A stretch of DNA of 64,000 nucleotides. It comes from an uncultured Prevotellaceae bacterium. GTDB lineage: Bacteria > Bacteroidota > Bacteroidia > Bacteroidales > Muribaculaceae. The stretch spans positions 1-64,000 of the forward strand of contig ONKF01000004.1 of the NCBI GenBank assembly GCA_900318335.1. The letters are read 5' to 3'. The notes beneath the pieces were generated by a model. That model did not search any database and was not told where the DNA came from. It saw only the letters and a program-made list of their open reading frames with translations. Numbering within the stretch: the first letter of the stretch is position 1; the number at the start of each line of letters is the position of its first letter. Below are positions 44,876 to 51,600 of this stretch, piece after piece. The position numbers and the translations under genes are program-made.

Positions 44876-46345
44876 ATGAAAGCGATTTGTTTTTATTTCC
44901 AGATTCATCAGCCGTTCCGTTTGAAGCACTACCGCTTCTTTGACATCGGTAACGACCACTATTATTATGATGACTTTGCCGATGACGACATCATCTCGCG
45001 TATCGCCCAGCGGTCCTACCTGCCCGCCAACCAGATGCTGCTCGACATGATCAAGGAGAACGGCAAGAAGTTCAAGGTGGCTTTCTCCATCAGTGGCACC
45101 GCCTTGGAGCAGTTGGAACAGTATGTGCCCGAGTTCATCGACTCGATGAAGGAACTGGCCCAGACGGGTTGTGTCGAGTTCCTGAGCGAGACCTATGCCC
45201 ACAGCCTGTCATCACTCTATGACCCCGATGAGTTTGTCGCCCAAGTCAAGGCCCACGACGCGAAGATTTACCAACTCTTCGGCCAGAAGCCCAAGGTGTT
45301 CCGCAACACCGAGCTGATCTATGACGACGACATCGCATCGATGGTTTATGCCATGGGCTTCAAGGCCGCCATCACTGCCGATGCCAAGCACGTCCTGGGT
45401 TGGCGTTCGCCCAACTTCCTCTACAGCTCGGCTTCTGCTCCCAAGCTCAAGCTGCTGTTGAAGAACGGTAAACTGAGCGATGACATCTCGTTCCGCTTCA
45501 GCAATCCCGAGTGGGCATCCTATCCCCTCACCGCCGACAAGTACATCAACTGGATCAACGAGTTGCCTCAAGAGGAACAGTTGGTCAACCTGTTCATGAA
45601 CTATGACGCACTGGGCGAGCTGCAGCCCCGCGAGAGCGGCATCTTTGATTTCATCAAGGCCCTGCCCCGTTTTGCAGCCGAAAACGATATCCAGTTCTGG
45701 ACCCCGAGCGAGGTCGTTTCCAAGTTCAAACCCGTAGCCGAACTGGCTGTTCCCTATCCCATGTCATGGACCGACGAAGCCCGCGACACCAGTGCATGGC
45801 TGGGTAACACCCTGCAGCAGGAAGCTGTCAAGAAGTTGTACAGCATCGGTGAGCGCGTGCGCCTGTGTACCGACCGCCGCATCAAGCAGGACTGGAACTA
45901 CCTGCAGGCCAGTGACCACTTCTTCTACATGTCCACCAAGCATAACGACGACGGTTCAGTGCATAGCCACTACAGCCCCTATGACTCGCCCTACACCGCG
46001 TTCACCAACTACATGAACGTGCTGAGCGACTTCATGACACGTGTCGAGGAGCAGTATCCTACCAGCATCGACAACGAGGAGCTGAACTCGCTGCTGTTGA
46101 CCATCCGCAACCAGGAGCAGGAGATTGAGAAACTGCACCGCGAGGTTGAGATGATGCGCAACAACATCGTCCAGGACACCACCGGAGACTTCCCCATCGA
46201 CGAGGAACCCAAGCCCGCCGAGGAGAAGAAGCCCGAACCCGAGCCCAAGAAAGCACCGGCCAAAAAGCCTGCTGCCAAGAAGGCACCAGCCAAGAAGCCA
46301 GCGGCTAAAAAGGCTCCAGCAAAGAAGGCTACGGACAAGAAATAA
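44876..46345 (+). CDS. GH57 alpha-amylase-like protein with Lys/Ala/Pro tail
   Basis: A 489-residue protein. The GH57 (beta/alpha)7 domain is at 1-390 with I-H-Q-P, H-in-T-Y-A-H-S, and nucleophile E146 in F-R-N-T-E-L-I. The acid/base motif usually M-D-Y-E-T-F-G-E-H reads M-N242-Y-D-A-L-G-E-L, so the expected catalytic Asp is Asn. A short coiled coil lies at about 404-425. The last 45 residues are an acidic/Pro linker and a histone-H1-like run of K-K-A-P-A-K-K-P-A-A repeats coded by 36-base DNA repeats. It may be a weak enzyme or a binding/scaffold protein of the glycogen cluster. Confidence 0.87.
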   Translation: MKAICFYFQIHQPFRLKHYRFFDIGNDHYYYDDFADDDIISRIAQRSYLPANQMLLDMIKENGKKFKVAFSISGTALEQLEQYVPEFIDSMKELAQTGCVEFLSETYAHSLSSLYDPDEFVAQVKAHDAKIYQLFGQKPKVFRNTELIYDDDIASMVYAMGFKAAITADAKHVLGWRSPNFLYSSASAPKLKLLLKNGKLSDDISFRFSNPEWASYPLTADKYINWINELPQEEQLVNLFMNYDALGELQPRESGIFDFIKALPRFAAENDIQFWTPSEVVSKFKPVAELAVPYPMSWTDEARDTSAWLGNTLQQEAVKKLYSIGERVRLCTDRRIKQDWNYLQASDHFFYMSTKHNDDGSVHSHYSPYDSPYTAFTNYMNVLSDFMTRVEEQYPTSIDNEELNSLLLTIRNQEQEIEKLHREVEMMRNNIVQDTTGDFPIDEEPKPAEEKKPEPEPKKAPAKKPAAKKAPAKKPAAKKAPAKKATDKK

Positions 46346-46357
46346 TCCTTAAAATAA

Positions 46358-46397
46358 TGAGGGTGAGCAAATACAAGTTTGTTCACCCTCAGTTTTT
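46358..46397 (+). terminator. Terminator after the glycogen cluster
   Basis: TGAGGGTGAGCAAA pairs with TTTGTTCACCCTCA (one mismatch) around a 6-base loop, followed by GTTTTTA. Confidence 0.88.
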
Positions 46398-46496
46398 ATA
46401 CGACAGGGATGACTCGGAAATAAGCGAACCTTACGCTCCTTTCCCGCATTGGGTCACGCTGTGAAGGCATTAATGGCGATTGTTGTGTCCAAGCAG

Positions 46497-46773
46497 GTCG
46501 AAGGCCTGCACAAGGCCAGCGGCCTTGAATTGCTCAAACCCCAGGGTGCACAGGCCGGAGGTCTGTGTAGCCTGGGGACCGTCAAGACAATAATAATGGG
46601 CCTGAAAGGGGCCACTAACCGCGACATTTCCTTATCCTGGAGTGTGTGGCCCCCTTCGAGGCCCTTTCCCATTGGACGCTCTTTCCCCATGCCGCACAGA
46701 CCTATCGGCCTGTACGCCATGGGGTTACCTCAATTCAAGGCCGCTGGCCTTGTCAAGGTCTTCGACCTTTTTT
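46497..46773. ncRNA. Mirrored array of hairpins, candidate structured RNA or mobile palindromic element
   Basis: Two arms of about 80 bases, inverted to each other, are set 110 bases apart. Each arm has three hairpins. Left: CAGGTC-GAA-GGCCTG, CAAGGCC-AGC-GGCCTTG (46511-46527), and CCCCAGG...CCTGGGG enclosing ACAGGCC/GGTCTGT (46540-46577). Right, in mirrored order: CCCCATG...CATGGGG enclosing ACAGACC/GGCCTGT (46685-46724), CAAGGCC-GCT-GGCCTTG and AAGGTC-TTC-GACCTT. The central stretches 46598-46614 and 46647-46664 also pair. The last hairpin runs into T6 at 46768-46773. Paired changes between arms (AGG/CCT versus ATG/CAT) keep the stems. Strand and function are unknown. Confidence 0.6.
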
Positions 46774-47005
46774 GCCTGATGAAAAGAACACGGGACTCAC
46801 CTTTTTGCAAAAATCATGACGTTAAATCGCTGAATATCAGACAAAATATATTTTAGCAAAATGCTAGTGCGGAAAACAGGAAAAGCAAGCCTAACGCTTG
46901 GCTTGGACGATATAAGCCAAGGCGTGTTTCATCCTCTGTCGTCGTGCTCGAGCCATACGAAACAAAAAAAGTATTTTTTTGTTTTGTTCTGCGCTCGACT
47001 TTCAC
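46774..47005. other. Gene-free stretch before the 5'-nucleotidase promoter
   Basis: No gene is accepted here. One hairpin is visible: CTTGGCTT (46897-46904) with AAGCCAAG (46914-46921), loop 9 bases. From 46965 on the DNA is A/T-rich and leads into the promoter. Confidence 0.5.
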
Positions 47006-48602: not shown

Positions 48603-51600
48603 ATGACCAAATTCAATCGTATTCTGCTTGTAATCGCGGCAATAGCGCTCACAATGGGCGCATGGGCGCGCGGCAACGCCAAGCTGCCTAACATGTTTAA
48701 CGATGTGGACCAGGTGGCGATGAGCCACTGGGTGGACAGCGTGTACAACACCATGTCGCCCGAAGCACGCATCGGCCAACTCATTGTCGCCGCAGTTACC
48801 CCCCGCAGCAACGACGTCACGCGTGAACTGGTGCGCCGTCTTGTGTCCCAAAATCTGATTGGCGGACTCATCTACGAGAACAGCACCATCGCCGAACAGG
48901 TCGAGGTAACCAACCTGGCCCAATCGCTGGCTGCAGTCCCGTTGATGATCACTATCGACGGCGAGTGGGGACTGGGCATGAGACTCAAGGAAGTGCCCAA
49001 CTTCCAGCGCAACCTCATCCTGGGCGCGGTGGACGACGACATGCTACTCTATGAGTACGGACGTGAGGTCGCACGCCAGTGCCGCCGCATGGGCATCCAG
49101 GTGAACTTCGCTCCTGTTCTCGATGTGAACGATAACCCGTTAAATCCCGTCATCGGTGACCGCTCCTTCGGCGAGAGCCCTGAGCTGGTGGCAAGGCATG
49201 CCATCGCCTTTGGCCGCGGTCTGGAGGATGGCGGCGTGATGGCTGTGGGCAAGCATTTCCCCGGTCACGGCTCATCAAGCGAGGATTCCCACAAGACCCT
49301 ACCTGTCATCAACAAGTCATTGCAGGAAATCAACACGTGCGAACTGGTTCCTTTCCGCAAGTTCATCGATGCCGGACTGAGCGGTATCCTCACCGCCCAT
49401 CTGCTCGTGCCCGCTATCGATGGCGGCAAGGCTCCTACGAGCCTGTCACACGGTTGTGTGGCTACCCTGCTGCGCGACGAGATGAATTTTGACGGTCTCA
49501 TTTTTACCGACGCCCTCAACATGAAAGGCGCCACCCAGATGCTGAACGGCTCGCCCTGTGTCAACGCCCTGCTGGCTGGCAACGACGTGCTGCTCATGCC
49601 CGAGAACGTCGGTGACGAGATTGCTGCTATCAAGGCCGCCGTCGCCAATGGCAAAATCAGCCAAAGCATCATCGACGAGCGCTGCAAGAAAATACTGCGC
49701 TACAAGTACGCCATGGGGCTCACCAGCCGCCAACACGTGAACACGTCCAATCTGGTGAATGACGTCAATTCCCCGTATTCCGAGGTACTCAAGCGCCAAC
49801 TCACCGCCGGCAGCATCACCGTCATCAAGAATAACGATAACATCCTGCCCATCCACAACCTGCAGAGCCGACACATCGCCGTGGCCACCATCGGTAACGA
49901 GAAGGGCACGACCTGTAAATTCACGCGCCGCTGTGCTGACTATGCCGAGGTCAAGCGCTTTGACCTCGCTCAGGCCGGATCGGCCCACGAACTCGCCGAG
50001 CAGCTGCATGACGGCCACTTCAACACCATCATTGTCGAGGTGGGCGAGGACAACGAAGCCAACCGTGCCGCCCTCGAGACTGTGGCCAAGAAGTGCAAGA
50101 ACGTCATTGTAGTGATTACGTGCAAGCCCTATGACATCAAGAACTACGGCAATGCCATCACCCACAAGCACGTCAAGGCCGTGGTACTGACTTACCAGAA
50201 CTCCACACTTGCCGAGGACTATGCCGCTCAGACCATCTTTGGCGGCAACGCGGCCAACGGCAACCTGCCCGTATCGCTCAGTTTCAAGGGCAAGAAGACC
50301 CGCTTTGACGCGGGCCATGGCATCCACTACCCGGCCAACCGCCTGGGCTATACCATTCCTGCCGAAGTGGGTATGGACAACAGCCTGACAGCCAAAATCG
50401 ATTCGGTCTGCCGTCTGGGTGTCCAGCAGCACGCTTTTCCTGGCTGCCAAGTGATCGTGGCTCGCCATGGCAAGGTCGTATACAAGGGTTCGTTTGGTGC
50501 CATTGACTACGGCAGTTCCCACAAGGTGGATGATAACACCCTCTTTGGCCTCGCGTCGGTTTCCAAGGCCACCGGTACCATCAGCGGTGTGATGAAAGCA
50601 TTTGACGACGGCAAGTTCCGCCTCGACGATAAAGCGAGCCAGTATATTCCCGGGCTGCGCGACGGCGACAAGGAGGATATCACCTTCCGCGACCTGCTCT
50701 ACCACGAGACCGGTATGCCCGCCTCGCTCGACATGTGGAAGATGATGATGGATCCTAACACCTACAGCGGAGTGCTCATTGCTGGTGCCGAGGATGCCAC
50801 CCACCCCATCAAGGTCATGAACGGTGCCTGGGGACATAAGGACGCCAAGTTGCGCACCGACATCCTCTCGACCCACAAGACCGACAAGTTCAACATTGCC
50901 ATCGCCGACGGCATCTGGGGCGGCAGGGTAACCTACGATTCCATCATGAACCGCATGTACCACGCCAAACTGGGCAAGAAGAAATACCTGTACAGTTGCT
51001 GCAACTTCTCACTGCTGGCCGATGCCGTGCAGCGCATGACCCACTCGCCACTGAATTACTATGTGAACAATTATATCTTCGCCCCCCTGGGTGCCTATCA
51101 CACGATGTACCGCCCGTTGAGCAAGTTCCCGCGCGACGAGATCGCCTATACCGAGGTGGACACCTACCTGCGCCGCCAGCACATCCACGGCTATGTCCAC
51201 GATGAGCTCGCTGCCTTCTCGGGCGGCGTGCAGGGAAATGCCGGACTGTTCAGCAACGCAAATGACCTGGCCAAGCTGTTGCAGATGTGGCTCAATGGCG
51301 GCACCTATGGCGGTGTGCGCCTGTTGAAGGCATCGACCGTCGAGACCTTCACGACCCAGAAGAGTCCCAACAGCCACCGCGGTCTGGGCTTCGACAAACC
51401 TGTCGTGGGTAACCCCGACGCCAGCAACACCTGTGCCGAAGCAACGCCCGAGACCTATGGCCACACGGGCTTCACTGGCACTTGCTTCTGGGTTGACCCC
51501 AAGAATGATATGTTCTATATCTTCCTGAGCAACCGTGTGAGTCCCACGAGGAATAACCCGAACTTTGGCCGCATCAGTGCCCGTAGCCACATCCAGTCGC

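Follow-up and report, generated by a model that had tools for sequence, protein, structure and literature searches.

The window analysed here, the whole 64,000-nucleotide stretch of contig ONKF01000004.1 from an uncultured Prevotellaceae bacterium, contains in a gap between two genes a long series of hairpins repeated in mirrored order, and the question arises what kind of object this series is. An earlier note, made from the letters alone, offered two readings, a non-coding RNA with alternative folds or a BIME/MITE-like mobile element. According to the data obtained, the array forms the central part of a larger mobile element occupying positions 46436-46880 of the window (445 bp). It is highly probable that this unit is a non-autonomous miniature element (MITE) of IS1634 type, the cargo of which is a pair of end arms from a Y1/HUH (IS200/TnpA_REP-like) element lacking the transposase gene.

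Layout and folding of the hairpin array

All eight hairpins were placed exactly and in the mirrored order 1-2-3-4-4'-3'-2'-1' described before, at positions 46493-46769, followed by T residues up to 46773 (Table 1). Independent detection of inverted repeats paired 46495-46557 with 46706-46768 (84%) and 46559-46578 with 46684-46703 (85%). The two arms are thus present, each being about 120 bases long once hairpin 4 is counted and not ~80 bases as first estimated, and exact placement confirmed the difference between them in hairpin 3 (AGG/CCT versus ATG/CAT). Predicted folding energy of the region 46480-46780 is -182.6 kcal/mol on the + strand (z -17.0 versus shuffles) and -190.3 kcal/mol on the - strand (z -13.6). 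Since both strands fold alike, as is natural for an inverted repeat, energy alone cannot separate RNA from DNA. The last hairpin with its T run is also present, but its likeness to a transcript end is weak evidence, because 46755-46769 is one of four terminator-like sites found in 901 bases, with 1.5 +/- 1.2 such sites in shuffled sequences. An Rfam scan of the window gave no match at gathering score. A coding explanation of the array was considered and rejected: the open reading frames 46449-46856 (+) and 46454-46720 (-) gave no Pfam family at E 0.001.

Table 1. Features of the element and its borders in window coordinates
Positions	Strand	Feature	Basis
46422-46435	.	possible decayed left target-site duplication AAGCGAACCTTACG	11/14 match to 46883-46896, abuts left end
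46436-46459	+	left terminal inverted repeat, degenerate copy of CCTGTTTTCCGCATTGGGACACGC	end comparison
46460-46492	+	MITE linker between left end and arm	common to relatives in alignment
46493-46509	+	hairpin 1 (HP1), loop GAA	exact hairpin placement
46511-46527	+	hairpin 2 (HP2)	exact hairpin placement
46539-46577	+	hairpin 3 (HP3), long stem with one G-G mismatch, loop GGA	placement and arm alignment
46598-46613	+	hairpin 4 (HP4)	exact hairpin placement
46614-46647	.	spacer; site of the Y1 transposase gene in gene-bearing relatives	comparison of loci
46648-46664	-	hairpin 4' (HP4', mirror)	exact hairpin placement
46685-46724	-	hairpin 3' (HP3', mirror)	exact hairpin placement
46736-46752	-	hairpin 2' (HP2', mirror)	exact hairpin placement
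46755-46769	-	hairpin 1' (HP1', mirror); on + followed by T run to 46773	placement and terminator scan
46774-46864	-	stretch homologous to start-codon end of complete IS1634, upstream of transposase ATG	alignment with IS137, IS138, IS142
46865-46880	-	right terminal inverted repeat TAGTGCGGAAAACAGG	end motif and end-pair test
46883-46896	.	possible decayed right target-site duplication AAGCAAGCCTAACG	starts 2 bases past right end

Copies and distribution

Homologues were sought among Bacteroidales relatives, as the earlier note had advised, and were found in 19 of 61 genomes, all belonging to the same genus (37 genomes of which were searched, the own genome included); none of the 24 genomes from other families matched. 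The own genome (G000, 3.15 Mb in 70 contigs) gave 34 matching rows with the 301-base query, many of which are the two arms, or the two strands, of a single copy. The copies on contigs C67 and C55 are near-complete, and those on C32, C36, C65, C30 and C68 are partial or related. Aligned copies agree from approximately 46436 to 46880; the span 46497-46773 reported originally therefore stands as an array and not as the limits of the unit, which extends well beyond it.

Several copies showed rearrangements of their own. On C36 (L169, 17615-17834), in a 220-bp copy, only the outermost of the eight hairpins are left, which a deletion between hairpins 2 and 2' would produce. Arm hairpins are also part of two tandem arrays, with 4.1 copies of 218 bp in L297 (221-1107) and 4.3 copies of 101 bp in L034 (4705-5138). 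Near-identical cores at C32:46661-46960 and 50225-50524 of the own genome stand 3.56 kb apart in common flanks, probably owing to local duplication.

The outer part is of IS1634 type

The outer ends of the element match both ends of complete IS1634 elements. About 24 bp on the left, including the terminal inverted repeat 46436-46459, correspond to the stop-codon end (L137, L138, L142), and about 105 bp on the right correspond to the opposite end up to the ATG codon. The end motif CCTGTTTTCNGCA occurs at six sites in the own genome, all of them at copies of the element, with no site for the reversed control; within the genus it is present in 57 of 101 genomes, and the reversed control matches in 16. 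Many of these sites lie at most ~150 bases from a contig start, as expected for a multicopy repeat that breaks assemblies, and 15 of the 29 end-motif loci read were judged by eye to be element ends, others being chance matches or unclear. A 494-aa frame adjoining one such end, which runs off the fetched locus, was assigned to IS1634 by NCBIfam NF033559 (348 bits, cutoff 100). Ten IS1634-like loci were then read, and four had both CCTGTTTTC ends, one of them (L141) lying at a contig edge and outside the duplication test. The three complete elements measured are 1660, 1660 and 1718 bp long, with duplications of 63, 30 and 31 bp. Matches to the IS1634 transposase query were found in 27 of the 101 genus genomes and nowhere in the own assembly (92.9% complete).

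Target-site duplications were assessed in 20 fetched loci, 15 of which had both ends and 5 no end pair; one locus, L153, contains a run of N. Direct repeats of 19-98 bp, situated 0-4 bp from the ends, were registered in 11 of these 15 non-autonomous copies, and long abutting repeats in all three complete IS1634 elements tested. The control of 306 mispaired flanks had a median score of 16, a 95% point of 21 and a maximum of 85. Its highest scores were 85, 70, 42 and 28, the first two coming from the pair L156/L162, which looks like one shared insertion; as the next controls are 42 and 28, the two weakest of the eleven copies (L159, score 28, and L161, score 42) are not beyond every control. Four of the 15 copies, the window copy among them, had no duplication above the cut. 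The repeat at the window copy (11/14 bp) is weak and falls below the cut of the unanchored test, with one of the 306 mispaired pairs scoring as high and a shuffle p of 0.005. Passages of PMC2266710 on the family describe long variable duplications of 8-514 bp for IS1634 and IS1549 and 5-6 bp otherwise, and state that no mechanistic model for the long ones had been proposed as of 2008. In this genus duplications of 19-98 bp can be read at complete elements and at miniatures alike, which offers a natural data set for the mechanism of duplication.

Multiple copies, terminal inverted repeats and long target duplications in most of the copies bear out the mobile-element reading. Transposition of the whole 445-bp unit would have been performed in trans by an IS1634 DDE transposase. 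The window copy itself looks old, with its degenerate left end, worn duplication and no IS1634 transposase in the assembly; we take the missing partner, which may be lost or unassembled, as a sign of age and not as an objection to the name of an IS1634-type MITE. Among other loci with IS1634-type ends, L114 (G076:C4:6390-6491) is a 102-bp element with little beyond the two ends, and in L127 (1501-1795) such an end is followed by a 69-aa open reading frame that contains cysteine pairs and matches no Pfam family, a possible passenger gene.

Insertion site

The element is preceded by a GH57-like gene and a terminator-like hairpin at 46358-46391 and followed by a nucleotidase-like gene, both gene names being taken from reading of the open reading frames. 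Among the 11 relatives read for comparison, the fetched stretch around the orthologous upstream gene contained arms in none, and in all three that had both flanking genes placed (L172-L174) the element is missing from the same gap. Its position between two genes, the terminator-like match inside it and the terminator-like hairpins that adjoin the window copy and L053 (by eye) would agree with a service to the host, the arms being kept as a 3'-end stabiliser or terminator. Such a role is nevertheless quite improbable, as the upstream gene already has its own terminator-like hairpin, which is retained in the element-free L172, and three relatives with the same gene pair do without the element. 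The GH57-like frame ends in a lysine-alanine-proline repeat tail (46220-46345), and the match of relatives stops within this tail.

Inner arms bracket Y1 transposase genes

On contigs C65 and C32 of the own genome the same arms stand on both sides of a gene with Pfam domain Y1_Tnp (E 3.7e-20 and 9.6e-22). The statement that no family matches is superseded, the outer part being of IS1634 type and the inner part corresponding to the arms of Y1/HUH transposase genes. For the closest clade 17 full-length matches with at least 79% identity were obtained, two of them without a locus; in 14 of the 15 loci read arms lie on both sides of the Y1 frame, and in L082 on the left only. By sequence, no arm match was found in L047 and in 12 of the loci L091-L106; it is short in L096 and L098 and present on both sides in L091 and L095. 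More distant Y1 clades have different sequences, which by eye again form mirrored hairpin series. This was estimated by comparing the upstream flank with the reverse-complemented downstream flank, the cut (32) being the 95% point of the more stringent of two controls. Of 77 loci 64 were tabulated (13 short or partial ones were dropped), and the test was run on the 62 that had flanks of 130 bases or more on both sides. Mirrored flanks above the cut were registered in 60 of these 62 loci (41-89% identity), L189 and L249 remaining below, and 35 exceeded the maximum of the mispaired control (78).

As a trait of this Y1 group throughout the phylum mirrored arms were rejected. In other genera the 95% control of 37 (control maximum 61) was exceeded at just 7 of the 29 loci (L279, L262, L277, L284, L263, L282 and L286), so that support for the mirrored form with four hairpins does not extend beyond the vicinity of this genus. 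Outside the genus, several Y1 genes of Bacteroidota (among L261-L289) are flanked by palindromes beginning with AATAGCC or similar, as seen by eye, hinting that REP-like repeats may be more widespread in the Y1 group.

The signature Y---Q--HH is invariant in 16 of 16 aligned Y1 proteins and in 10 of 10 displayed separately, and all 16 aligned proteins have NH[IV]H as their HUH motif. In the relevant passages of PMC6006769, TnpA_Y1 subclass 1.2 is characterised by Y---Q--HH and DH[IV]H, with REP listed as 'no' and typical terminal structures generally lacking; having NH[IV]H instead of DH[IV]H, the proteins studied here are called subclass-1.2-like and not members. NCBIfam model REP_Tyr_transpos (NF047646) gave 36.4 and 34.9 bits, below its cutoff of 80, and the IS200/IS605 model (NF033573, cutoff 55) gave 61.8 bits for the L033 frame and 54.2 for that of L034. 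Relatives of the Y1 protein by sequence in PDB include the transposase of ISHp608 (2a6m). Related Y1 loci come from assemblies of uncultured Bacteroidales, Bacteroidetes, Muribaculaceae, Prevotellaceae and Porphyromonadaceae, several of them from ruminant gut. The most novel points are that this Y1 lineage has mirrored arms though the nearest published group is listed, in the same passages, without flanking structures, and that arms of this kind occur within carriers of IS1634 and IS4 type. The arms are a candidate substrate for that group, and divergent, architecturally alike versions of them exist. One can assume that the Y1 transposase would recognise the hairpins in single-stranded DNA, one arm per strand, and that they would be retained for this reason.

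Paired substitutions, wobbles and loops

Paired changes that keep the stem, noticed originally in hairpin 3, were counted over the set of arms, for which 226 matches, 170 of them near full length, gave 65 distinct sequences (the remaining 56 matches were excluded). In related sequences from which the structure itself was drawn, pairing holds in 97.6% of pair cells, and 17 of the 29 pairs are changed on both sides (134 cells). Shuffled arms had on average 90.1% paired cells and 7.9 double-changed pairs, none of 500 shuffles reaching the observed values, and controls with a slid structure gave at most 51.9% and 5, respectively. Stem-keeping paired changes are supported by the full set of 65 arms.

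Within this set 23 elements have both arms. Here 1305 of 1334 cells (97.8%) have the local pair, and 1187 of 1334 (89.0%) that of the cross-arm duplex; the two arms can indeed pair with each other, as was claimed, but this duplex is less well kept. Of the 141 pair positions at which the arms are unlike, 115 retain the local pair in both; where both sides differ (71 positions), it is retained in both arms at 64. Paired changes, therefore, preserve the local hairpins more than the long duplex.

Wobble pairs, with the arms read from the outside inwards, are G-T in 168 cases and A-C in 21 (70 and 21 without two dominant columns). As 98 of these 168 wobbles fall in the two G-T columns, common descent may explain some of the strand bias. 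In the left arm the wobbles favour the + strand, in the right arm the - strand, and no single RNA could favour both. Loops in the 65 arms are GNA in HP1 (55/65) and GNA or GNNA in HP3 (60/65), with GNA in HP2 found only in 5 of 65; GNA and GNNA loops are described in a passage of PMC4686876 as extraordinarily stable DNA mini-hairpins. Taken together, the wobble bias and the loops, which favour a different strand in each arm, would speak against a single RNA and for hairpins formed in single-stranded DNA.

These data bear directly on the idea of a structured non-coding RNA that exists either as local hairpins or as one 270-base duplex. Very low folding energies, strong paired changes and the terminator-like hairpin with its T run on the + strand are what such an RNA would have. 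We consider it hardly credible, since the copies are transposon units with terminal inverted repeats and mostly with duplications, the same arms are found on either side of a protein gene, Rfam gave no match at gathering score, both strands fold about equally, wobbles are tolerated on one strand in the left arm and on the other in the right, and the duplex is less kept than the hairpins. A general caution follows: strong covariation is no proof of structured RNA, as hairpins that mobile elements form in single-stranded DNA could produce the same pattern.

Arms in other carriers

Y1-type arms sit inside carriers of both IS1634 and IS4 type, and the combination found in the window is therefore not unique. 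Arms of another clade (clade C) are contained in the IS1634-type element L123 and likewise in L116, which is seen from one end (both by eye). In genome G035 the same core is enclosed in different ends (ATTACTGTCCGG.../...CCAGACACCAAT), and in another genome (L306) a frame beside an end of this type scored 177 bits (cutoff 115) as a transposase of the IS4 family. When the ATTACTGTCCGG-type end pattern is relaxed, it is present in 59 of the 101 genomes of the genus, some of which contain it very many times. Duplications of ~10 bp, AT-rich, are readable by eye and without control in L291 and L292 of G035. Near-identical copies of the core in ATTACTGTCCGG ends (L290-L293, on contigs C7, C1 twice and C25) suggest recent movement.

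Such diversity of carriers could also mean that the core is an active, separately mobile, Y1-dependent REPIN-like unit entering and leaving IS ends, for which the IS1634 shell was a chance landing site. Copies on C32, C65, C30 and C68 of the own genome, whole or partial, that stand apart from the IS1634-type end motif, the IS4-type ends in G035 and the clade C arms in L123 and L116 all agree with it. At the same time no filled and empty site pair for the core alone was noticed among the loci read, and the near-identical cores of L290-L292 have common outer ends and so moved as whole units, which makes independent mobility of the core rather unlikely. We favour a miniature element of IS1634 type that carries Y1 arms as cargo. 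In a broader and still tentative scheme, which we hold to be somewhat short of an even chance, a Y1/HUH lineage of gut Bacteroidales has ends built of mirrored four-hairpin arms, giving a single-stranded DNA recognition array on each strand, and these ends have been picked up repeatedly by unrelated DDE carriers (IS1634, IS4), with formation of two-tier elements movable by either transposase. If true, this would add an end architecture absent from the relevant passages of the TnpA_Y1 survey (PMC6006769) and a standing partnership of two transposition chemistries. Neither the composite nor the arms were found described in titles and abstract openings of the open literature among the matches listed.

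Comparison with known systems

With the IS1634 family and its miniatures the element in the window has in common the terminal inverted repeats and sub-terminal DNA of complete elements, as well as long and variable target duplications; it differs in having no transposase, in place of which there are about 280 bp of Y1-type hairpin arms. As in RAYT/TnpA_REP systems with their REP, REPIN or BIME sequences, inverted palindromes flank a Y1 gene and copies devoid of the gene are dispersed. Here, however, four hairpins compose each arm and are mirrored around the gene, scores with REP_Tyr_transpos are below cutoff, and no GTAG-type foot is present at the eight hairpins of the window, GTAG being located inside the HP3 stem. 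Subclass 1.2 of TnpA_Y1, as outlined in passages of PMC6006769, shares Y---Q--HH, a length of ~150 aa and occurrence in Bacteroidetes, whereas the proteins considered here have NH[IV]H and mirrored flanks above the cut in 60 of 62 loci. With IS200/IS605 the Y1_Tnp domain is common, but the small subterminal hairpins given for subclass 1.1 in the same source contrast with the long mirrored hairpin arrays of the elements described here.
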